64,000 nucleotides of DNA from Amphibalanus amphitrite (taxonomy: Eukaryota; Arthropoda; Thecostraca; Balanomorpha; Balanidae): the NCBI RefSeq assembly GCF_019059575.1, contig NW_024881505.1, forward strand, positions 1,073,501 through 1,137,500. The letters are read 5' to 3'. Positions within the stretch are counted from its first letter, which is position 1, and each line of letters opens with the position of its first letter. The position numbers and the translations under genes are program-made. Below, one piece after another: positions 17,401 to 59,700 of the stretch. The notes below the pieces were generated by a model that was given only the letters and a program-made list of their open reading frames with translations, was not told the origin of the DNA and ran no database searches.

Positions 17401-18413
17401 TGTCAAGTTTATCTTATATGATCGTATTATCCTCCGGCAAGAGGTCAAAGAAAACAGGCCTACACCCAGTTTCGGGAGACCCGTAAAACAACTAAGACCA
17501 GCAATGGCTGGCATTTTCCATCATTGTCGGCTGATCTTGTAACAAGCGTATCTATTGCATGTGCTATTTCACAGCCACCCTAGTTGACTATATAGGACGG
17601 TAAAAAGAAAAAAGCGCAATCATGTTTGCCTTATTTTATACGCTTGTCCGGGTAATTATGGGACACCCTGTAGACCACTTCTCAGACATATATTCCGGGT
17701 TTTTCGATACACTCAGATTTTTGGATTTTATAATTTTCTCAAAAAAGTCAGTTTTTTGAAAAAAGTTGGGCCAAAATCCAAAATTTTCAAAAAATCAAGA
17801 TAGCCATTTGATAGACAAAGTAGAATCACGTATAACCTTTTTGGTTACGTCTTGATTCCTTTAAAAATGAAGATGTTAGCGGCGTTTGAAATTTTGCCGT
17901 TTTTGAGGCGAAAATGGCGAACATGACGTCACTAAAACGTCATTTTCTCAAAAAAAATTCGACGGATTTCGCTCAAATTTTCAGGGAACGTGTCAAATTG
18001 ATGTATGATAAGGTACTGAAAGTTTCACGTCGCTGGCGTAACGCGTTTAGAAGTTATTGCCCCCCCCCCCCCCCCAGCGGGGCGCGGGTTAACGAAAAGA
18101 ATGTTTCCTGACATACCTGTTCAATAAGTTCATGGTATCTTTTTACAGCATTCATTAGCGTTCCCCGCCCTTTCGGTCAAGACCTGTAATATCGACAGAG
18201 ACAATGTTTTCTTCATACCGTTTTCTCATGTTCCAGCAAAAATATTTCGATTCGGGCGACTACCAGATGGCGAAGCAGCGCGGCCCGCTGAGCATGATGC
18301 GGGGATCTCAGATGCGGGGCGCGCCGCCCACCGGCGAGACCATCCCCACCCCCGAGACGCTACCTTCGCGCAAGACGTCGCTCGTGCAGAACAATAAGAC
18401 GCCGCTCACCTAA
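14421..18413 (+). CDS. ENSA: Alpha-endosulfine / ARPP19 family PP2A inhibitor (three exons)
   Basis: Endosulfines, once phosphorylated by Greatwall kinase, inhibit PP2A-B55 and so protect mitotic phosphorylation. Coding exons are 14421-14501, 14875-14982 and 18237-18413. All junctions are phase 0 and GT-AG, giving 121 aa, the same length as human ENSA. The acidic N-terminus is followed by the conserved [11 protein letters not shown] helix, LQKRLQKG, then [13 protein letters not shown]. The serine of FDSGDY is the Greatwall site. Near the C-terminus, RKTSLV matches the PKA site of the family. The second intron holds a TTAA-flanked element with a mariner nested inside. Confidence 0.95.
16323..17670 (+). 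mobile_element. Tc1/mariner-type element nested in the TTAA element
   Basis: The inverted ends are CAGGGTGTCCCAGAATTACC and its near complement GGTAATTATGGGACACCCTG. TA flanks both (16321-16322 and 17671-17672). The sequence on each side is continuous with the surrounding TTAA element. The interior contains a decayed transposase. Confidence 0.88.
16590..17500 (+). pseudogene. Degenerate mariner-type transposase
   Basis: Fragments in shifting + frames resemble an IS630/Tc1/mariner transposase: an N-terminal helical stretch with [19 protein letters not shown] (about 16610-16670), and a middle stretch around [10 protein letters not shown] (about 17000). Several stops and frameshifts break it. 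The 151-aa ORF on the opposite strand (17059-17514) is a shadow of this relic. Confidence 0.6.
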
Positions 18414-44700: not shown

Positions 44701-47700
44701 TAGGCCTTGCTGTAGACTAACTGTATAAACCCATCGAGACAGCCCTTCTAGGTGAGCTTAGTTGGCGAACCACTGCCTTGGGGAGTGTTTCTGGCGGATC
44801 GCTGTCCCAATAGGTTTAAATGCGACCGACTGTCTCTGAATGTTTGAGCGGTCTCCTCCCGCTGTGAACTAGTTTCAGTTGATATCTATCTCAGAAATAC
44901 TTTTTAAAGGAAGGTTAAACGGAAATCGAACGTAAAATGAACAGAGGAAATGGTAACGAGTTACCTCATTGAAGAATAGCGCTCGCCTACTTCAAAAGGT
45001 TTGGAATCGTTCTTCAACATCTAATATGCGATCGGGTTATGGCATAATTTTTCCCATTAGCGATTTTTTTCTAATACAGCAATACGAAAAGCGTTACATC
45101 GTCCACTGGCGGATCCAGGGAGCGGGCATTTAAAGCAAATATTTATTCTCCCTCCCCTGGCCCCTGCATCGCCCGAAATAGACAAACGTACCTTATGTTT
45201 CCTAATAAAACACTTTTTTATCAGCATTTTTTTTTTGCTTTATACTGTTCAGCAGTAGATCCGTAAGGAATCGAAATCCGATGAGTTTTTGGATTTTGGA
45301 CACTTTTTTTTTGGGGGGGGGAGGTATGTCCCCTACAGCGTCGAAAACGCCTTTCTGGATCCGCATATGACATCATCTCGACTGGGATCTTGCCCCCCCC
45401 CACGCCAAAATCGAATCCGCCGCCACTGGACTCCCACGCTGGCGTCCCACCGAGCTCTACAGCTCGCCCGGCCATCCCGCTCACCAGGCTCGCCACGTGA
45501 TGCAGCACATTGCACAAAGCTAGTTAACTCCGTTGTGCGCAAATAAAAAACACTGGATACGTGCTCAATACATTATAGAAAGCAGTCACTCATGTAGACC
45601 TGCACTCAAACTAAAGTTGTGCCAAGTATCTCACTTGGTTTTCCGTATACCTTCGTTTGCGCTGACCAAGTTTGGATTAATTAAACTTAAACCTTATTTT
45701 GTGGTATGACAGTTTGACGTTTGTGAAAAGCGATAATGTGAACACATATATTGCACAAACCGGTTTCGATATTACTTCATTAGTGTGCAAATGTATAAAT
45801 AAAACAGGTTATGAAGGAGTGAGTGGGGCCCACCTATTTCGTCTCCGTTTTGTATTTTGTGTGTTTTATTTATATATTTGCACGCTGATGAAGTAATATC
45901 GAAACCGGTTTGTGCAATATATGTGTTCACATTATCGCTTTTCATAAACCTTATTTTGTTGTGCATTTTGAAAGTAAGAATTGCATTATTGCCTGTGTAG
46001 TTCAGACATGAGTCAGCATTGGTAAACAATATGAAAAAATCACCTTTTTTAACTTACAGCTTTGTATCTTCACCCGGCAGGTCTGCCTATCCATCGGGTA
46101 GTTGAAGTAGACCATGTTGCACTTGACCGTTATGAGGTACAGGCTCGTCTGAAGCGGGGTCAACGGGGCCGGTGTGACGTTTTCGTATATCCCTAGAAGT
46201 CGTGACAATCAACATGACATTTATCATACCAATGGTTATATAACAGTGTTCGCCACGGGCCGCAAAATCCCATCCAACCCGGCCCAGGCCCTGGGTTCAC
46301 AACCCGGCTCAGCCCGAGTGGTAAAAGTGTCAACACCCAGCCCGGCCCGTCAAAACAAATGGATTGACAAGTGCTGACACCACACAGATATTATGTCATC
46401 CAAAGGTAGCAAAGAAACAATCTTTGGGAGCAGCATGCACTTGCACAATGCACTTGTATGCTTCATCGTTTTTTAGTCTTGCACAGAAATAAGCTATATA
46501 CATAGCTGTGTTTTTGTCTCAGTCGCGAACCTCGAGTCTATTTTAAAGTTATTGGCCCAGCCCGTCCTCAGCCCACCGATCCTTCATAACCTGTCATGGA
46601 TTACTCGTAAATGAAGATTGGAAAGCGAAAACATTAAATTAAGTACATGTTTTTAGTTGTTCGTGATGAGATCTTTCGATTGGCATTTGAATTCTCCAAA
46701 TCGGACCATTAGTTCGGGAGATAACAGGGGGGGGGGGGTAAATTTACCCACCCCCAGCCCCGCGCGTTCGGCCGGAGACCCCAGCCCCACGCGGGTTAAG
46801 GTCCTAGGTCATCGGGTGACCTTCCAGGTCAGGTCAATGACCCGAAAATCGGGAAAATCGGGACCTGTTAGAAAGTCGTAAAGTGTGGCTGCTATGGGGT
46901 TTTCCGGGGTGCTGATCACGAAATGCCTTCGTGCCTTATGCCTTCGTAACATGTTACGAAGGCACCAAAACTACTTCGTAAATGCTCAAATGGTTGCTAA
47001 ATTCGAAATCAGCTCCAAAAGCTAGCCTAGAAACATGTAAAACTCGAAAAAGTGAACCGAAGTCACCAAAGGTCAATGACCTGACCTGACATTCAGGTGA
47101 CCTTGACATCCACCAGAATGCATGGGAGCCACATCAGATCACATGTTTGAACGTTTGAAACCACGAAAAGCTTGCAAACGCGCGGCTAATGCGAGCCGAC
47201 ATACGCCGAATTGCGATTCCGGCCAAACATGGTCTCAGAAAGTAGGTCACAGGTCAAAGGTCATTTGGGTCAGGGTCATGAAATTTTCAGGGTAGGTGTA
47301 ATTTTTTTTCGTGATTTGTAAAGTAACAAAATATATTTACACGTAAGATCCATTACAATATTGCATCGCAGGATTTTTTTCCACAAGCGCGATTTACGCG
47401 CACGCACACGCACACAAGGACACATACACCCATACACACGGAGGAGGTCGGGGCCGTTCCGCAGCCGGTGCCGCTCCCTGACGCGGCGGTCACAGCGCCC
47501 CGCCGGCTTCCTCCACAGTGACCACTTGGTCGCAAAGGTCTTTGTGCAGGTAGAAGAAGATGTAGCCGTTCCTCTGGTGTCCGGCCTCGCCCAGAACGTC
47601 GGCCTCGTCCACACAGCTGACGCGCCGATCGTCGTAGTGGAACCACCTGTCCCTGCCGACGCTGTACTCATCCGACACGTAGTGCCCAGAGTGCGTGGCG

Positions 47701-50700
47701 CTGCCGTAGTGGCTGACGACGCCCACCAGCCGGTAGGTAAAGTCGCCGGCCAGGTCCACTGAGCGGGGAGACTGGCCGTCTTCCACGCAGAGCTCCGATA
47801 GGTGTGCCTGCTCCGAGGCGTCGGCCGGCGCTCCCTCCAGCGACCTCATGATGGCTTCCTGGAGCTCGCGGTCTTTGCTCTCGCAGGTCCGCGCCGGTTT
47901 GAACTTGGAGTCGGCGTCCAGCACCACCAGCTCGGCCTGCGCTGGCGGCGGCTGCGGCGGCTCGGCACCGGTCGCCGGTGACGGGGGACGCACCGGTGCC
48001 GCGGCTCCGGCCGACACCGGCGAGTCGGCGGCGGCGGACTCCGGCAAGCCGGCGGTGGCCGGCACTGGTGACAGTCCACGGGCGGCGGGCGGCGGCGACG
48101 GACTCGAGCTGGGCGCCTCAGACTCTTTGAAGTCGGATAGGATGCACAGGGCAGGCTTTGTGCACTTCCACTCTGGGGGACGGGTGACGTCGTCCGCGAC
48201 ATGTTCGTTCAGCGAAAGGAGCTTGGGAATGCCGACGTTGGAGCAGATTTTCTTCGATTCCTCCCCAAGGAAGACGTACCGGTTAAGCTGGACTATCAGC
48301 GTCCTGGGCAGCTGGCTGATTTTGGTGGTGACGCGGCACTCGTCATGGCGGCAGTGCTGACAGAGCAGCTCGCGCCGGTCAGGCCGCATGCACAGCCGCA
48401 GCGCGTCCTGCAGCGTGGGCGTCTCTGTGCCCTGGCGGCGCGGCACGCTGACAAACCAGCATATGTTCTCTTGCTGTTTCAGCACCGTTTCATGGCACTT
48501 GGTGCACATGTAGCTCTCGACGGTCTGATACTGAAAGTTGTCTCGCACAAGGTTATCGGTCGGCCGCCGCGCGCCAATTTCTTCCTTCATGGTGTCTAGC
48601 AGGCGCAGCAAGAACTCGTTGGCGTCCTGCATCTCGATGCCTCGGAACGCCGGATCGATGTCGGCGAACACGTCGCGAAGGTCGTTAAGATGGCTGGAGA
48701 CTGATCTGCTGAGCCCCTTCTGACGGAGCACCATCAACTCCGCGACACCATGCAGTGTGCGGCAGAGGCTGTTCTCCCCTGGGCTCAGGTCGGAAATCAG
48801 CGACAGCATGTCGCTCAGGAACGGAGTCAGGCCCAGCAGAGATTGAAGCGTGGCGTTTTGATAGCACGAGTTGCCGTAGTTCGGCAGACCAATGCAGAGC
48901 GGGTCGCTGGCGCTCGTGTCCGACTCAAGCCGCTGGGTAGCCGTGATCAGCTGCGAGCCGGTGCTTTCCGTCTGCGTCCTCCTGCAGGGTGACTGTGGCG
49001 TCTGGCTGCTCTCGCCAGGGCCGTCGGTTGGCGGCATTCTGTCAGACGGCTGTAGCGCCTGCCCACACTCGCCAGCGCTGTCAGTCTGCGGCTTCCTGCC
49101 CTGCGGCAGCACCTGATTGCCCTCATCGAACTTGCCAGGCAGCAGTGGCGGACACGCATGCTGGGTGATCTTGGAAGAAGAGCTACCGGCTTCGCTAGAC
49201 TCCTCTTCACCTCCACGAAACGCGATGCTCATCTGCCGAGACGAAGATGTATCGCTCTCGCGCGCCGGTCGAAGTACAGAGCGCCGCCGTGACAGAGATC
49301 GAACCGCAGGCCCTGGCACGAGCGGACCGCCATTCTGCGCCGTTACGACTCCGATAGCTGCACTAGACTTGTTCTTCTCCGCTTCTTTGCCTGCCATGTC
49401 TATTGGTGTCTTCGGCGAGGAATCGGAAAATGCATTTGACGAGCGACACCTACGGGGTCGTGCGGCAAAAACTTTCTCTGTCCGCGGGCGCCACTGCAGC
49501 GACACCTGCCGTGTGGCTCCAACACTATTGGCTCAGTCTGTGCGCCCACGCCGTGCCGCGAACACTGATCCTACACATTGTTCAGCGTTCCGATTGTAGT
49601 TGGACCACATCTGGTGAGTTCTCCCCACGTGGTGGGTGCATTACGCCGAGATGGCCTGGCTGGGCCGTGGTGTCGTATTTTTATGTTCGCCCAGTGGGCT
49701 CGCGGCACTGGCAGCCGGCTCTCAGTTAGGAACTGCCAGACCAAAGTACCAGTCGCTGGCTGTTTTATATTTTTGTGGGACGCAGCGTTAGTCGGTCACA
49801 ATTTGGCCAGACGTGTACGCAATCGTGGATGCCTGAGAGGCAGCGTTAGTCGGTCACAGATTGGCCTGACGTGTACGCAACCGTATATGCCTGAGAGGCA
49901 GCGTTAGTCGGTCACAGATTGGCCTGACGTGTACGCAACGGTGTATGCCTGAGCTGCAGCGCTAGTCGGTCACAGATTGGCTGGACGTATACGCAACCGT
50001 GTATGCTATATCGGTTTCGTCCGCGTCCCACTCTGGGAGCGTCCAGGGCTTACGTAATTTTGTTTTTCTCATTGCAGGCATGCTCGTCGTAGGGGACAGC
50101 TATGCTGTCCACCTCCCCCGCCGCTGTTCGCCCCACCTTGCCGTGGCGGCGGCCGGTGTTCGCGGAGGCTGCGTCAATGACGACGGCTTCAGGCGCTGGG
50201 CCATCCGGGCCGCAGTTCGTGCCCGTCCTCGCGTGGTCACGCTCGTGGCGGGCGGAAATGACCTCGCCAGAAGGGACTGCCGCGTTCAGCGGTGGCTCGC
50301 CAACCTCCAGGAACTGACGCTCGGGCTCCTGGCAGCCGGAGTCGTTCGCGTCTATGTGCTGCCCATCCCTCCGCGCACAGGCTTTCCATCCAGCGGCGTG
50401 TCGGCGCGAATTTTCCGGCGGCGGCGCTGGGTGGCCAACAAACTGTTGCGCCGCCTTTTCCGCCAACCGCCGGTGCTCCTGCTCCACTTTGTGCCGCCAC
50501 CTGACTTTCTGGCGTCGGATGGGGTTCATCCGTCCGCGGCCGGGTGGCGCACCCTGGAGAGCGTGCTACAGGAGGCTATGGACGCCTCCTCCGGGATTTA
50601 GCGTGTACCGGGTCGCTCCCGTGCTGTGTCGTGTGTGTCCCCCCCCCCCCTCCTAACCGGCTGGCCGTTTAAATACACATTCCCGCTAACATCGTCGTCT

Positions 50701-53700
50701 ATTTTCATGCGTTCGGAGCTGCTATGCCACGGGCCAAGTCGTCGGCGGGCCGTGCCCCGGCACGCCCCCTGCCAGCGCCACGGACGGACGCGCCGCGACG
50801 CGCCACTACGAGACGCTCCGCGGCGGCCGCGGCCGCGTCTGGCGCTGGTGCCACGAGCCGCCGCACGCCCGCTGCTGCGGCGAGGCGACAGGCCGCAGTG
50901 ATGGCCACCACTCCGCCCAATCCAGGGCGGGGCCATGCTGCTACAACGTCGGCCGCCGCCGCCTCGCCCCCTGACGCCGCGGTCATCGACCCCGCCGCTC
51001 TTCAAACAATGGTGGGCGACATGGTCCGGGCCGCCGTCGCCGCCGCTCTACCTGCCAGCGAGCCATCACCGCCGGCGACGGTCGCCGTGCAGCGCGGTCC
51101 GGCACAGCGTCTCCAGGATGGGCCAGCTGCCCATCTGACGTCCGCCGACCACGCCTACACGCCGGCTGCCGAACTGCAAGCCGGGCCAATGGCGCTCCCG
51201 GCGGTTCTCTCCGGCGCCCTTCCGACCGCCGCCGGCCCTGCTCCACCTGCGCACCTGCCAGCGGCGCAGTTGCCCGTCGCCGGCCGTCCGCCGGCACCGG
51301 TGGAAAATGCCGCAGGTGACGACCTAGCGGCCCGCGCTGCCGTATCCCCCGCGGTGGCGGCCCTCATCGTGTCCCATCAATTCATTGACCTAAACACTCT
51401 CCTCAACGACTCTATCCCCCCGGCAGAACCAGGGCTGTTTTGCCTTATCGACGGCCGTCTCCGTCCCTCGGTACAGCGCCGCCCAATCCCGCATTTCGGC
51501 GCCTGGGCCACCGCGTTTCTTCGATACGCGGCCGTGTACTTGGCTGCCCACCCCGCTGACGCCTCCGGTCTGTTGCGCCACATGCAACAAGTGTCCTCGC
51601 TGCAGGCGCCCGGCCTTGGATTCGCGTGGCGCGATTTCGATGAGGCCTTTCGGCGCGCACGGGGCATCTGCCCGGAAGCTCACCCATGGGGCTCCACGGC
51701 GGCCACGTCTCCCATTTGGCTCACCGCAATCGCTCGCGGAATCGCCGGTTCTCGGGCCGGGTCTGCAGCCGGTGTAAGCGGCGAGGGTCGGGGCGGCTCT
51801 AGCCGGCCGGCCGCCGCGTCTGGCTCTTTTCGCGCGCTCTGCCTCGGCTACAATCGCGCCGCCGGGTGCCGCCGGTCCCCGTGCCTGTTCCGGCACGAGT
51901 GCCGCCTCTGCCGTGGCCCCCATAGCGTGCTCGCCTGCCCTCGCCGCGCCGCCCCGGCCCTCCCCGGCACCCGCCGCCCCGGCCGCGAATGACTCCCTCA
52001 CTCCGCCGGTATCAGTCCCGCCCGACCACCTCGCGCTGCTCCTGACAGGTTACGACCCCGCCCTGGCCGCGCAGCTAGTGCACGGTTTTCGCTACGGCTT
52101 CCCGCTCGGCAGCGCCGAGGTCCCCTCTGGTGACTCGGGCGGCAACCTTCCATCCTGCTCTCTGGCGCCGGAAGTCGTGGACGCATATGTCGCGGCTGAG
52201 ACGCGCGCGGGTCGGATAGCCGGTCCTTTCTGTCCCGCGCCGCCATGGATCGTCCGTTTTTCTCCCATTGGTCTAATCCCCAAAAAGTCTCCGGGCTCGT
52301 TTCGGGTCATTCACCACCTGTCATTTCCCACCGGCGCTTCCGTCAACGATTTCATTCCCCGGGAGCGCACATATGTTCAATACGGGTCGGTGGACGAGGC
52401 TCTTCGCCTGATTGGGTCCTTCCAACGCCCCTACCTCGCCAAAACCGATATTGAGAGTGCATTCCGCATCGTGCCCGTCCGCCCGGCGGACGCCGCCATG
52501 CTCGGTTTCCATTGGCGGGACTGCGCATACGTGGACCTTTGCCTTCCTATGGGCTGTGCCAGCTCTTCCCAAATCTTCCAGTCCGTCAGTGATGCGCTCG
52601 TCTGGATCGCGCAGAACAAATTCGGGGCGGGTCCCATTGTTTCTGTTTTGGACGACTTCCTCTTCATCGGCGAGTCGCGCGCAGCGTGTCAGCGCTCGCT
52701 CGGCGGCTTTCAGGCCATGTGCCGTGACTTGGCGATCCCGCTGCGTCGCGACAAGACCGTGGCGCCGTGCCGGTCCCTCACCTTCCTCGGGGTGGTATTG
52801 GACCTTGAGCGCGGCGAGCTGCGGCTGCCAGCTGACAAGCTGGCACGTGCCAGGGCAGGCCTCACGAGCCTGCTGGCCCGCCGGAAAGCGCCCCTCCGCA
52901 TGGTCCGTGAATGCACGGGGCTCCTCAGCTTTGCGTGCACCGCAGTGCCACTCGGTCGCCCGTTCCTACGGCGCATGTTCGACTTGTGTCGCGGCGTGTC
53001 GCGCCCTCACCACCGCGTCACGATCACCCGGGCGGCCAGACAGGATATGCGCGCCTGGCTGCTGTTTCTAGACCGTTTCCCAGGCCGCGCGATTCTCGCT
53101 CACCGGCGCTGGTTGTTGGAGCCGGGTCTTATCCTGGAGACGGACGCCTCCAGCTCGGTCGGGCTCGGTGCCATCTGCGGCGAGGACTGGCTCCTGGGGC
53201 CGTGGCCCGCGTCCCTCCGCGAGGCCCCTATCAGCGTTTTGGAACTAGTGGCTGTCGCTGTAGCCGTGCACGTGTGGCGAGATCGGTTCGCGCATCGCTG
53301 CGTCCTTGTGCGCTCAGATAACTCCGCTGTGGTGGCCTGTATAACCTCTCAGTCATCTCGCTCGCCTGCCCTAATGCCATGGCTCCGATTCCTTTTTCTC
53401 ACCACCGTCTCTCATAACATTCTCGTGCGTGCCGTGCACACACCCGGCATCGCCAATGCAGCAGCTGACGCCCTGTCCCGCGGTCTTGTGCAGGTCTTCA
53501 AGGAGCTCCGCCCGTCCGCAGCAGCCACGCCGACGTCCTGGGACTGGCCGGCCTGCGGCACGCTCTCACCGTTCACCAGCTAGCTGGTGCCGCGCTAGCT
53601 CCTGCCACCATTCGCTCTTATCGAGCAGTGTGGGGCCAAATCCGCGTTTTCCTCACTCTGCCGCCCACTGCTGCCCTGTTTCCCATCTCAGTGGCCGACA

Positions 53701-56700
53701 CTGCTGATTTCCTGGCCTCTCGACACGAGCAGGGCTGTTCCGCTTCCACCCTCGCCGCCGAGGCGTCTGCCATCTCCTACGGCCACAAGCTAGCCGGCGC
53801 GCCGGATCCCACGGCGGACTTCCGGGTGCGACAGCTGTTAGCGGGATCCCGCCGGCTACGGCCGAGTGCGGACAACCGCCTCGCCGTCTCCCTGACCGAG
53901 CTCGGCGAGCTCTGCGCCGCACTCCATTTCCTAGGCCTCTCCCCGGTAGACCGTGCTGCATTCCGTGCCATCTTTACATTGGCTTTCTTTGCTATGCTTC
54001 GCCCGGGCGAGGTCGTGCGCGGCCGAGACCTGACCCACACAGTCCGACTCAGCCACGTGAGTCTCGTCGGCCCCCAGCTTTCTCTCACCATTCCATCCTC
54101 AAAAACGTCGGCCTCCCCGTTCACCACCACGCTTCGAGCCCGGCCTGATCTTGCCACGTGTCCGGTCGCCGCTGTCCGCGACTACCTCGCGGTCCGCGGC
54201 ACGGGCCTTCCTGATGACGCACTGTTTATCGGCGGCCATCGCCGCCCTCTGACATCGCGCGATCTCACTCGCGTACTTCGCATGGCGGGCCGTCGAGCTG
54301 GTCTCAACCCAGCCCGCCTCTCCGGGCACTGCCTTCGCATCAGCGGCGCCTCCCACGGCGCCGCAGTCGGACTAACGGAGCCTCAACTCTGCCACGCCGG
54401 CCGCTGGTCGTCCCAGGCCGTGCGGCGATACGTACGGCGGCCGGTCTCCCTCCTTCAGGCATCCTAAGCGGCGGGTCCCGTCCAAAGAGGGTTAACGTTG
54501 CCGGCCTTCCACCGCTACCGCTCCCAAACCCGAGCCACAGCTGCCCGTTCTAGGTCTGGGTGCACGGGCCGCGCCCTAGCAGGCGTAGCGGCAGTCCCGA
54601 CGCTGCCTGTTCAGGCCCGGGCTCCCAAACCGCCGCCCTCGCAGGCGGAGCGGCGGCGTCCTTGGCCACCTGCCTGTTTTCGGTCCGGGATCCCGGACCG
54701 CCGCCTTCACGGGCGAGCGGCAGTCTTGTCAGCTGCCTGTTTTAGGTCCGGGCCCCCGGACCCCCGCCTCACGGGCGGAGCGGTAGTCTGTCAGCTGCCT
54801 GTTTCAGGTCCGGGCTCTGGGACCGCCGCCCTCGCCGGCGGAGCGGCAGTCCCAACTCCCGACGGCTGCGCGCCACAGTGATGTATCTGTATATATGTAA
54901 CGTCGGGCTCGCGTGTTCATTGTTGGTTTAGCTCGCCCGCACAGCCATAACCCAGATGCAACTGCAGTTTCTACGCCACAGCCGCACCGCCGACGGTGCC
55001 ATGTTTGTGCGTCGCGTGAGGTGAATTACGCCGTGCGCGGCATGTCATGTCCTCTGCCGTCGCGTTATCGCCACGTCTGTTAATCCAGAGGCATCCATCG
55101 TTTTCCATTAGCTTTCTGCCGCCCTGGCAATTTTGTTCATAGCGAATGCCTCTCCGTTCCGCGCGGGTGCAGATGGGGTGTTGGGCGTAATCTGCACCCA
55201 AAGTGCATGACGGGTGTACAAACGTACGAATACACAGACCCATATTCATCAGTCATGCATTTGCAAGCGCAGCGGAACGGAGAAATGCATTTGACGAGCG
55301 ACACCTACGGGGTCGTGCGGCAAAAACTTTCTCTGTCCGCGGGCGCCACTGCAGCGACACCTGCCGTGTGGCTCCAACACTATTGGCTCAGTCTGTGCGC
55401 CCACGCCGTGCCGCGAACACTGATCCTACACATTGTTCAGCGTTCTTGTCTTTCCGATTGTCCACCGCCACCCCGCCGCCGCCTGTGGTACTGTGTTTCC
55501 ATGCATTGCTGGCTCTGTAAGCGTAATCTGCACCCAAAGTGCATGACGGGTGTACAAACGTACGAATACACAGACCCATATTCATCAGTCATGCATTTGC
55601 AAGCGCAGCGGAACGGAGAAAGTCCGTTGTCTGCAGGACGCTAGCAGCATTGCCCCTAACGATGGCAAGGGCCAGTCGCTGCCACAGCCAAGCTGTCTCT
55701 CGATGATCCCCTGATATGGAGGCCATCCTTGCCCCGAGCTCTCGAATGAATATCTTTGTGGAAGGTCCGCACACTCCTGTTGTTTCAAAGGCAAGCGGTT
55801 CGAAGTGGAAGCGCTGTGCAAGGCCACTGTATTTCTTGCGCTTTCTGTCCTCTGCTTCACGGGCCGCTGATCCGGGGGAAACAGCTGCTGATAGAACGTG
55901 GCTCTCAGCAAACGTGTTCACGCAAGTAGCGTCCCAAGCTAGACACATGCCCCTGGCGAATGGAAAGACTGTTATGCCGTCTGGGCGTTTGCTGTCTCCG
56001 CGGTCTACACCTGTTGGCTCCAAGAGAGAGGGGATTCTTGCCGACAACAATGCCCGCCTGATAATGTCGTTCAGCGCGGTATGTCTTGGATGTCTCCCAG
56101 CGCTGAACTTACAGGTGAGTGCGTGATAGCCGTTGCTGTCAGCCATTGAACCGCACCTACAGCGATGTGGGCGGCACACTTCGGCTCCCAGACGAAGGGC
56201 GATAGCGACTCGCAGGGTTTCCGGATCCAAAAGCGTGCCGATGGTTGCTGCAGGTACAGCATGCAGCCATACTCCGCTTTCTGGGGCACAGGCACTCAGG
56301 AGCCTGGCGCGAAAAAACTGGTTGGATTGTGAAAGCAGCGACTGTTGTTGTTTCTTGGCAAGCACTGTATCCCAGGTCTTTTGTTTTCGCGCTTCTTCTC
56401 CTTCGGGAGCACGCTCGCCCTCGGCTGCGTCTTCCCAGTCGGCAACAGCTTTTTCGCGCTCAGCTGTGACGCTTGAGGTCATTACAGAAGGCAGACAGGA
56501 AGATATGACCTGAAGGCACAAGTGGAGCGAAGCAACGTAGCTCGGTAGAGCGACGTCCACCAGCCGCCGGAGCCCGAGACCGCCGTACCTGGTTGGGAGA
56601 ACGGCCTGCTGCCAGCTGGTTCCTGTCAGCCTGACGTTGCTGATACTGATCAGCGCTGATTGCAGGACTGCGTCCAGATTCTCAAGGAGCAAGGCTTGCC

Positions 56701-59700
56701 GATAGAGAGGGGCGGCTCGCAGAAGATACTGCAGTTTGGGAAGCCATAGGCAGTTGCGAAGGAGATAGATGGATGTGTGCGCGTCTAGGTGACGTAAACG
56801 CTCAATCATGTGACTGAGTTCTCCCTGCTTTTCTGTCATGACCGCCTCGGTGGCAGCTTCGCTGATAGGCGCCCCGAGGATTGTCTGCCCTTGTTCGCCG
56901 GTCACAGCTGCTCCTGGGATAAGCTGACGTAGGCTTGAGACAGAAACCTTCCTCCGCTCGTCTGTGATGTCGGCTGGTAAAATGATCTCACATTTGCTGG
57001 AATTAATTGTGAGACCAACATTGGCCATAGCTGGAATCAGCTCATTCAAGTCCGAGCAGATGGCACTGACGCTACCGCCAATGGTTCCATCGTCCAGGTA
57101 CCAGCAGTTGAACGGCGCTTTCACTGTCTTGACAACTTCATCGATGGCGAGTGAAAACACGGCTGGCCCGCACGGGTCACCTTGTTGGAGTCCAGTGGCA
57201 GAGGTGATGATGGCTGTCCCGTAGAACAGAGGTGTAGGTTCTCTGTATGCCTGCCATAGAAGGTGGTACATAGTTGGTGCGTGCTCTCGAACTTGACGAA
57301 GAAAAAGGTCCCTTCGAACGCTGTTAAAGGCGTTACGCATGTCTAGCTTGATGATGGCACAATCCTCTTTAAGACTGTCATTGAAAAGGCGCGTTGAATG
57401 CACCGCAGCCTCACATCCACCTGTGGTTCCGTAGCCGAGCTGTGCTGGTCGCAGGTAAGCGCCCAACTCGGCACCGAGTGGTTTCAGAGCCAGTTTGGTA
57501 GCCAATCGTCGGTAAGTGTTTCCGACAGCGATCGGTCTTACACCGCCATCTGGTTTGCGCAGAGCTGTTAGCGCTCCTCCGAAGAAGGCAGAGCGTGCGA
57601 ATGTTGCAACGCCGCCTGTGAGGACCAGGCTCATGAAGGCCGTGAGAGCAGCAATGAGTCGGGTGCCGGCCTCTCCGGCGGCCCGACTTGTCATATCTTT
57701 GAGGTGAGCAGGACGCAGGCCGTCTAGACCTGCGCTGGACCCGTTGTCAAATGAGGCGATGGATGCTTCAACCTCGGCCTTGGTGACCTGGTAGGGCTGT
57801 GTTGCATCATCGGGGCCAGGTGGCCATGCCAGATCGTCTGGAGCGGACGGATGTTTGAGCCGCAAGCTGTCGATGATGTCCTGCGAGTTCTGGGCGATTT
57901 CGTCCTTGGATGCCAGTAGTCGAATAGCCCCTCGCACGTCTCCGTCTTCTAATTTCGCGGCCACGCTTCGCTGTAAATGCTCGCTTTTCTCAGCTTTGGA
58001 GCGGTTCCTGCCGTGCGATGGCTTTAGAGAGCTTGCGCGATTTGTTCGGTGGGCGTCATGTTCAGTGGAAGCTGAATCTATGTAACTGCTCAGCTGTCGT
58101 CTTATTCTGGAGGTGAGTGATGGGCTGCTGGGGAGGTCTTCTTGATGCTCAGGCGAATGAAGCGCAAGATATGGAAACAGAAGCAGTCGCTCCCAAGCCG
58201 TGTTTGTGTTCTGTTTAACCACGGCTTCAAGAAGAGAGGTGCATGCTTGGGCTGCGGTTATCCTGGCACCTTAAGGAATTCGTCTAATGACTCGGCGAGT
58301 CTGTCTGAGTTGGGCTAGATGGAGAGCCAGTTCGTTGCTATCTGGTGACTGGTCAGCTGTTGGGGTGACTGAGGTGGTATGACACTTCGCCTCGCTAGCA
58401 GTAGCAGGTGTCGTCCCACTGATCCCGGTACACCTCGGGCACCACCAACACGACAGTGCGTCGGCCTCCCTCCGTTTCAGGCGCGCACACGTCAGGTGCC
58501 AGGCCTGGCCACAGGAACTGCATAGGATGTGCCGCTTTCTCCTGTTAGCAATACTGCAGAGTTGGCATGTTACGTCTTGAGACTGCTCAGTTGTATCATC
58601 GAGCGTGCCGTCCATGTCGGTTAAAAAAAAGTCTTGTGGGCACACCAACTATTTTGACTGCATTGTGAAACACAGATTCTGGTTTAATGTAAAGGAAGAA
58701 TGTGTTCCTTTGATCATTGTTATTTTAGTCATTCTTCCTTTTTTCTTATGTTAGTACGTCCCGAGAAGAATCCCCATAATGTTTTCTTCATAAATGGAGT
58801 TTGGCAGCAGCAATAAGAAATACTTCAACTGAGAGAGTTTGGCTCAAAACGTCACGTTTTATGAGAGAAAAAAAGTGATGGCAGATTTTGCAGTTTATGT
58901 CCGGCACGGAGACAAAATAGATGCAAAATATGTTTTCCTGAAAAACGTACCTTAAAATAGAAGTGCACTTATCTTGAAAACACTTCACTTGCCTTGCATG
59001 AAAACATGCTCTAAATGACCAGCGAAGATTACTCGATGTAAAGTGCCAAGAGGTAATGCGATACAATGACAAAAAAATGATTTCTGGACGATCGAAACGG
59101 GAGCCTCTGGTGAGTCAACCGTTCGGCTCTGCGCAGGCGCAGAGCAGAGCAGGTGTAAAATTGATCAATGCGAAGGTACTGAAAGTTTCGTCGCGATCGG
59201 CCGCTTTTTACGCGAGTTATTCGCGGAAAACCTTAGGGGGGGTTACATCACCCCCCCCCCCCATGTGCCGGCGAGGGTTAAAGGTTTGATTCTTTGTTTC
59301 GCCGTTAGAGGGGTGGGGCATCTTTTCCACCCTGGGCATCTTACCCCACTCTCCCCTACATAATATATGAAAAACCCAATCAGTTTATACCTTTCTTGCT
59401 CCTTTAGTTGACCGTTCGATAGTAGCGGATTTCTGATTCAGATCGTGCTAATGCATTCTTACCCGGAAAATGGTTTTGTCTTGGTACAGATGAACACCGG
59501 CCGCGGGAATGATCAGCTCTGGCTTCTCCACCTTTTGGACGAACAGGGCGAACAGGTTGGGCAGCCACAGCTTCGAAATGGCGTCCGTGTCCATTTGCAC
59601 GTACGGCTTCGTCATGTCTGAAACCAGACACAGAAACTACTTCAGTATAGTGGATCAGTCGTCCTGAATAGGTATAGATCATGCTATGTAACAAACAATG

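Follow-up and report, generated by a model that had tools for sequence, protein, structure and literature searches.

A retrotransposon with a protease at its C-terminal end

The window analysed here, 64,000 nucleotides of the Amphibalanus amphitrite genome (contig NW_024881505.1, positions 1,073,501 to 1,137,500), contains on its minus strand one copy of a non-long terminal repeat (non-LTR) retrotransposon that carries a PHD finger, an R2-like reverse transcriptase (RT), a ubiquitin-specific protease (USP) and a terminal run of eight adenines (A8; Table 1). Comparison with its relatives indicates that this is probably an R2-like element with an exchangeable C-terminal slot, which can hold any of six types of host USP, a tail of the DPELARYL type, or no recognised domain.

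The RT open reading frame (ORF; 58270-55589, minus strand) matches Pfam RVT_1 with an E-value of 1.9e-20, and the USP ORF (49532-47490, minus strand) matches Pfam UCH over the entire profile (positions 1-254 of 254; E 3.3e-44). The ORFs, the Pfam matches and the target-site duplication (TSD) confirm the initial annotation, which had placed both domains on one strand between identical 8-bp flanks (AGGTGTAA) with a terminal A8. When 40 nt of each flank were joined, the resulting sequence aligned across the joint at 17975-18033 of the window with a score of 72 and a single 2-nt gap near the end of the alignment, compared with scores of 28 and 45 for the half-flanks alone and 26 for the best of 1000 shuffles; the empty site that had been proposed at 17955-18005 is thus borne out. 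Because the joined flanks match this relative of the empty site and a single TSD pair encloses the whole, PHD finger, RT and USP were most likely inserted together in one event. We regard it as virtually certain that the fusion of RT and USP is real. A repeat search of the window found no terminal repeats of at least 25 nt at the element's ends, that is, no LTRs; the flanking TSD, the A-rich 3' end and an RT of the R2/LINE-1 kind characterise it as a non-LTR element.

By its predicted fold, the element is R2-like. The model of the RT frame (mean predicted local distance difference test score, pLDDT, of 92 from an alignment of 41 sequences) retrieved R2 retrotransposon proteins as all of its top seven Foldseek matches, and a profile search with the RT placed R2 first (9.9e-23; LINE-1, 1.9e-11). 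By VIA-align Z-score, LINE-1 ORF2p (26.6) ranks slightly above R2 (24.5; root-mean-square deviation 5.1, 703 residues aligned, model residues 88-886). R2 chains align up to model residue 886-890, but the LINE-1 chain 9k6i also reaches residue 885. The C-terminal region of the frame contains the invariant residues C704, C706, H716, C720, R762, D764-G765 and W779-D780, which we take to fit the CCHC and PD-(D/E)xK patterns, and the region is presumed to form an R2-type restriction-like endonuclease. The element is not R2 proper, because it is inserted in a dispersed repeat (the one related to 17975-18033) and nowhere in the window does an Rfam family, whether rRNA or other, score up to its gathering threshold.

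Cys223, His617 and Asp634 of the 680-amino-acid USP ORF match the catalytic motifs and, together with the complete UCH domain, identify the window protein by its sequence as a member of the USP (peptidase C19) family. The core of its predicted model (pLDDT ~70-85; 47.7 for the whole chain, owing to disordered parts) matches USP12, USP2 and USP46, and no solved structure stands out as a match that would identify the subfamily. Among the matches listed, the closest database protein is P0121, an A. amphitrite protein named USP37-like that is 98% identical. The initial annotation had named a single-copy host USP as the finding that would speak against it; instead, at least 17 A. amphitrite proteins match the window USP, one of them named Dscam2. 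P0124 (A. amphitrite, 728 amino acids) is USP37-like with an RGG-rich N-terminus and has no RT match; it may represent a host-adopted copy, a different element or an artefact of gene modelling.

The copy in the window is dead. It is broken twice, because an in-frame stop codon parts the PHD finger from the RT and a second mobile element splits the RT from the USP. Of the single PHD-RT-endonuclease frame that had been described, the shared reading frame stands (the PHD part runs from 58648 to 58271), but one in-frame TAA at its end interrupts it. Relatives have a sense codon at this position: exactly one residue lies between the PHD match and RT residue 1 in five of seven PHD-matched fusions of the kind described below, and the remaining two (P0013 and P0035) likewise have one such residue after unmatched RT residues are counted. 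The inserted element is a plus-strand Ngaro, a tyrosine-recombinase retrotransposon with split direct repeats (in the order A1, B1/A2, B2), an RT/RNase H ORF, in which RNase H scores under the Pfam cut-off, and a tyrosine recombinase. Since its length, 6191, is 2 mod 3, with RT codons starting at 1 mod 3 and USP codons at 2 mod 3, RT and USP share one frame, and the codons that flank the Ngaro on both sides, read by eye, contain no stop; its removal joins the two in frame, as had been proposed. Roughly the final 10 residues of the RT ORF and the initial 34 of the USP ORF come from the Ngaro and do not belong to the element. Within the Ngaro, an ORF at 49966-50601 (plus strand) contains GDS and DGVHPS-like motifs and presumably resembles an SGNH hydrolase, and tandem repeats at 49776-50006 and 54538-54856 show spacings of 58 bp (87-91% alike) and of ~62-68 bp (61-74% alike).

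Table 1. Features of the retrotransposon, of the Ngaro inserted in it and of the related empty site (window coordinates).
Feature	Position	Strand	Evidence
TSD AGGTGTAA, 5' end of element	59151..59158	.	identical 8 bp
5' untranslated stretch	58649..59150	-	inferred from ORFs
PHD-finger frame (PHD domain 58430-58567)	58271..58648	-	PF00628, E 2.8e-5
In-frame TAA between PHD and RT, this copy	58271..58273	-	
RT and presumed zinc-knuckle/restriction-like endonuclease region	55622..58270	-	Pfam, predicted model versus R2
Reverse transcriptase core (RVT_1)	56957..57559	-	Pfam
Ngaro between RT and USP, 6191 bp	49431..55621	+	split repeats, domains
Ngaro repeat B2	55521..55621	+	
Ngaro repeat A2	55274..55445	+	
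Ngaro repeat B1	55185..55285	+	
Ngaro tyrosine recombinase ORF	53469..54467	+	Phage_integrase, 3.2e-6
Ngaro RT/RNase H ORF	51778..53583	+	RVT_1, 4.4e-9; RT_RNaseH, 0.0057 (below its cut-off)
Ngaro repeat A1 as matched (element part from 49431)	49419..49590	+	
Linker and USP coding part of the element, Ngaro border to stop codon	47490..49430	-	
USP catalytic domain (UCH), complete	47550..48893	-	Pfam; fold match USP12/USP2/USP46
3' untranslated stretch after USP stop codon, ~180 nt	47310..47489	-	sequence
Terminal A8 (T8 on plus strand)	47302..47309	-	sequence
TSD AGGTGTAA, 3' end of element	47294..47301	.	identical 8 bp
Paralogous repeat without insertion (empty-site relative)	17975..18033	+	flank-join alignment

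Six kinds of USP in one slot

Searches by RT, by USP and by a profile of 13 fusions yielded 219 proteins; all counts refer to the matches listed and are lower bounds. At least 27 database proteins combine this RT with a USP in a single chain. Each of the 13 fusions scanned by Pfam has both RVT_1 and UCH, and the others were recognised from precomputed Pfam annotation and BLAST. A PHD finger is detectable in 14 of the 27, and 13 represent clusters of at least three member sequences (31 for P0132). The only named host is A. amphitrite (P0133 and P0157, both annotated gene models, the latter on a 617-kb contig). Six fusions (P0132, P0133, P0136, P0145, P0146 and P0158) carry the window's own USP type. 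With RT and USP in a single frame, these chains are the additional copies for which the initial annotation had suggested a search, and they run counter to the outcome that it feared, namely that relatives consistently end right after the endonuclease. The Cys motif is present in 27 of 28 USPs, the window's included (the gene model of the exception, P0133, lacks the region). The His motif is seen in 19 of them, and the nine proteins without it end before that region. A tblastn search of viral and genome contig collections with the fusion alignment as query returned no relatives.

The USPs in the slot are of six types: USP2, USP8, USP30, USP35/38, USP37-like and USP10-like, assigned by eye and from BLAST clusters before any tree was built. 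Matches to solved structures agree with several of these assignments, with USP35 at 167 bits for P0036 (next USP, 79), USP30 at 173 bits for P0153 (next, 64), USP2 at 312 bits for P0042 (next USP, 252) and USP8 at 310 bits for P0035 (next, 261); for P0001 the distinction is less sharp (USP8, 236 bits; next, 223). P0199 has no specific match among solved structures, and its Cys-box is presumably that of USP10. In a USP tree with five human USPs, which leaves out P0013 and P0005 and contains no USP37 reference, the types group with human USP30 (100/100), USP35 (100/99), USP2 (99/97) and USP8 (82/74), and each type forms one clade: USP37-like 100/100, USP30 100/100, USP10-like 100/99, USP2 100/98, USP8 88/82 and USP35 87/53. 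The USP37-like clade unites seven domains, among them that of the window, and is the element-borne clade that had been anticipated. Because the types join distinct human USPs, at least the well-supported ones were already different USPs before capture, and in all likelihood several host USPs have been captured. P0005 contains one further short USP piece, which is counted with none of the six types, and P0151 continues in frame for several hundred residues after its USP8-like domain. P0199 and P0204 belong to a distant RT clade that carries USP10-like and USP35-like domains; USPs have therefore also been acquired outside the RT clades that include named barnacle members.

The slot holds other contents as well. 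P0002, whose RT is closest to that of the window, ends in a DPELAQYL tail (it is labelled 'other124' in the trees), and P0001, another near RT relative, has a USP8-like domain in the same place. With such different tails on the nearest RT relatives, the cassette is an exchangeable module rather than a constant component, and the earlier claim of a USP belonging to the element is supported with this qualification. Twelve proteins bear the DPELARYL-type tail (P0002, P0007, P0009, P0010, P0037, P0038, P0039, P0041, P0043, P0119, P0159 and P0162), and one of them, P0159, is the sister of the USP37-like P0145 on the RT tree. Pfam recognised no family in this tail in the three proteins scanned (P0010, P0037 and P0119; a GluRS_N match in P0010 lies elsewhere), and the one tail searched against the PDB matched only RAD50, unconvincingly (E 0.32). 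In P0009, P0012 and P0164, the slot is occupied by another short motif, FEIPWG or FDIPWG with a GAR stretch behind it, in P0009 along with the DPELARYL-type motif.

The type of USP follows the RT phylogeny poorly. The RT tree required an RT segment of at least 290 residues and has 196 rows, including the window, from the 219 proteins; for the analysis of type changes, 64 rows were selected, of which 28, the window among them, bear a USP. Among these 28 rows, 17 type changes are needed on the RT tree. The USP37-like type needs seven changes for seven rows, no fewer than shuffled labels (mean 6.8), and tests that omitted P0136 and P0146 for their short RT rejected a single clade on the RT tree for USP37-like (p 1.5e-25), USP2 (3.8e-35), USP35 (1.3e-7), USP8 (2.6e-6) and USP10-like (6.9e-5). 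RT and USP distances are uncorrelated, both for the 26 rows present in both trees (Spearman 0.058; 111 of 500 permutations as high) and for the 21 better-filled rows (0.072; 103 of 500). Individual pairs illustrate the discordance. P0035 (USP8) and P0132 (USP37-like) are separated by an RT distance of 0.21 and a USP distance of 3.2, P0152 (USP2) and P0178 (USP35) by 0.21 and 3.9, and the window and P0001 by 0.43 and 3.8; conversely, the window and P0132 have like USPs (0.30) on far RTs (2.29). Compared by eye, the sequences of the 27 fusions lose their similarity only a few residues beyond the point where the conserved RT frame ends. We conclude that the cassette very probably changes often.

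Possible origin and role of the cassette

A USP filling of the slot would consist of a flexible linker and a catalytic domain from a host USP, placed directly after the endonuclease part. Target-primed reverse transcription would copy the 3' end of the RNA first, and an RT that jumps templates, as PMC8857657 reports for the B. mori R2 RT, could in this way join a 3' cassette, supplied by the mRNA of a host USP or by a sister element, to a new RT. An A-tailed 3' end like that of the window copy would need no particular 3' untranslated region.

Several observations weigh against an exchangeable slot on an R2-like element, or limit how far it can be generalised. The profile of the C-terminal region alone matched R2 weakly (E 0.25-0.49, behind an unrelated chain), leaving the endonuclease unconfirmed by this route. 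In 142 of 196 RT rows the tail is shorter than 60 residues and shows no USP (137 of these rows end within 10 residues of the RT query end, and a few may be cut short), which indicates that the wider family as a whole can do without a USP; the USP share among the 196 rows is itself inflated by the use of a fusion profile as query and gives no prevalence. The two USP30 rows are sisters on the RT tree, and all 16 tail labels together require 39 changes, where shuffled labels need 43.7 on average and reach so low a value in only 3 of 200 shuffles; to some extent, then, the labels do cluster by RT. The USP37-like and USP10-like labels rest on database names and characteristic motifs, with no solved structure standing out for either, and Pfam found no ubiquitin-interacting motif in the 62-amino-acid piece tested; the USP37-like label of the window's USP comes from the database name. 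The USP8 grouping (82/74) and the USP35 element clade (87/53) have moderate support, and four rows fill less than half of the USP columns in the tree. The relatives are known as protein sequences, in which TSDs, 3' ends and codon selection are not visible, and the protein database favours intact frames. Finally, a comparison of element USPs with human ones does not separate exchange between elements from repeated capture of the same host gene, and the nearly star-shaped USP37-like clade fits both alike.

We consider it somewhat unlikely that the pattern arose wholly by repeated fresh capture of host USP mRNAs through template switching, with no exchange between elements. The presence of several different host USPs means that capture did happen repeatedly, and the star-like USP37-like clade would suit such a history. 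Set against this, the same few types recur, and in 49 of 56 same-type pairs the USPs are closer to each other than are their RTs. P0001 and P0155, which share a USP type across far RT clades, also have similar linkers (31% identity over 98 residues), though a captured host flank could also account for this likeness.

Pfam detects no ubiquitin domain that the USP could cut from a polyprotein, either in the 13 of 27 fusions scanned or in the window's three element ORFs. Tethered to the RT, the USP might strip ubiquitin off the retrotransposon protein that contains it, off the complex of that protein, or off proteins present where the element inserts; we give such self or local deubiquitination slightly less than an even chance. 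The host USPs of the slot types have unrelated natural substrates, and the fact that such enzymes fill the same slot suggests that generic deubiquitination beside the RT is what is selected. More speculatively, the slot could be a general-purpose accessory site whose contents pass from element to element and are replenished from host mRNAs, so that any host deubiquitinase within reach serves in an arms race against ubiquitin-based silencing or degradation by the host; the DPELARYL-type tail would then serve the same end through a host factor that it recruits.

It is unlikely that the USP instead has its substrates in the chromatin of the host (H2A or H2B carrying ubiquitin, for example) or among repair factors at the target, with the PHD finger as reader, and so eases target-primed reverse transcription. 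The unrelated substrates of the slot USPs fit a generic local target better than a single histone mark; the PHD fingers in about half of the fusions and the link between transposon-borne Ulp1 or OTU proteases and DNA repair, suggested in a passage of PMC2836005, speak for such a role. That the USP is a passenger of no use to the element is improbable. P0002, so close in its RT, has no USP, and most RT rows show none, but every protein that extends over the relevant regions retains the Cys and His motifs, despite an identity of just 41-51% between the window's USP ORF and P0132, P0136, P0145 and P0146, and it is a protease of this class that fills the slot again and again. A chance neighbourhood of an RT fragment and a host gene or retrocopy, or a chimeric assembly, is very unlikely despite the annotation of the best match, P0121, as a host USP37-like gene, for one TSD pair, with its empty-site relative, encloses RT and USP, and RT-USP chains recur on many contigs, 13 of the 27 in clusters as described above.

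Relation to known systems

An exchangeable slot would have practical consequences. Six kinds of USP in one position on related RTs amount to a natural module-swap set, by which the property needed, the substrate and the host pathway become testable. The pattern suggests that non-LTR elements can often change their 3' protein modules, and A. amphitrite genes that bear the name USP37 or USP38 are, in some cases at the least, probably retrotransposon fragments: P0133 and P0157 are RT-USP chains. We know of no settled role for the ubiquitin and SUMO proteases of mobile elements.

The element differs from R2 in its 8-bp TSD within a dispersed repeat (R2 proper occupies the 28S rRNA gene), in its USP tail and in having a PHD finger in place of the N-terminal DNA-binding fingers of R2. 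The main text of PMC7650587, on R2-like elements that are not site-specific, mentions no PHD finger, protease or ubiquitin. Comparable elements are NeSL and one Utopia element, which a passage of PMC4640811 describes as non-LTR elements with a restriction-like endonuclease and a ubiquitin/SUMO-pathway cysteine protease, Ulp1. As told there, their protease is Ulp1-like, N-terminal and found in nematode members without being universal, whereas here it is a C-terminal USP (C19) of several host types; upstream of the RT in the window, Pfam finds only the PHD finger.

Published accounts of mobile elements that carry ubiquitin or SUMO proteases go back at least to 2010, as a passage of PMC2836005 attests. 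Ginger1, described in that paper, likewise has a C-terminal slot, filled with OTU or Ulp1 and never both, and one Ginger1 also has a PHD finger; it is a DNA transposon, however, with two alternatives and no USP in the passage concerned, compared with six USP types here. The same source mentions once a Trichomonas transposase_11 joined to Peptidase C19, likewise a mobile-element enzyme fused to a USP-class protease, but this is a DNA transposase and the passage speaks of no cassette exchange. The initial annotation knew of no USP in a non-LTR element, and none appears among the titles and abstract openings listed from open-licence PMC papers; the novelty is qualified by this C19 protease on a DNA transposase. 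With fusions to Ulp1, OTU and C19 already known, the surprising part is the slot itself, exchangeable and stocked with several types.

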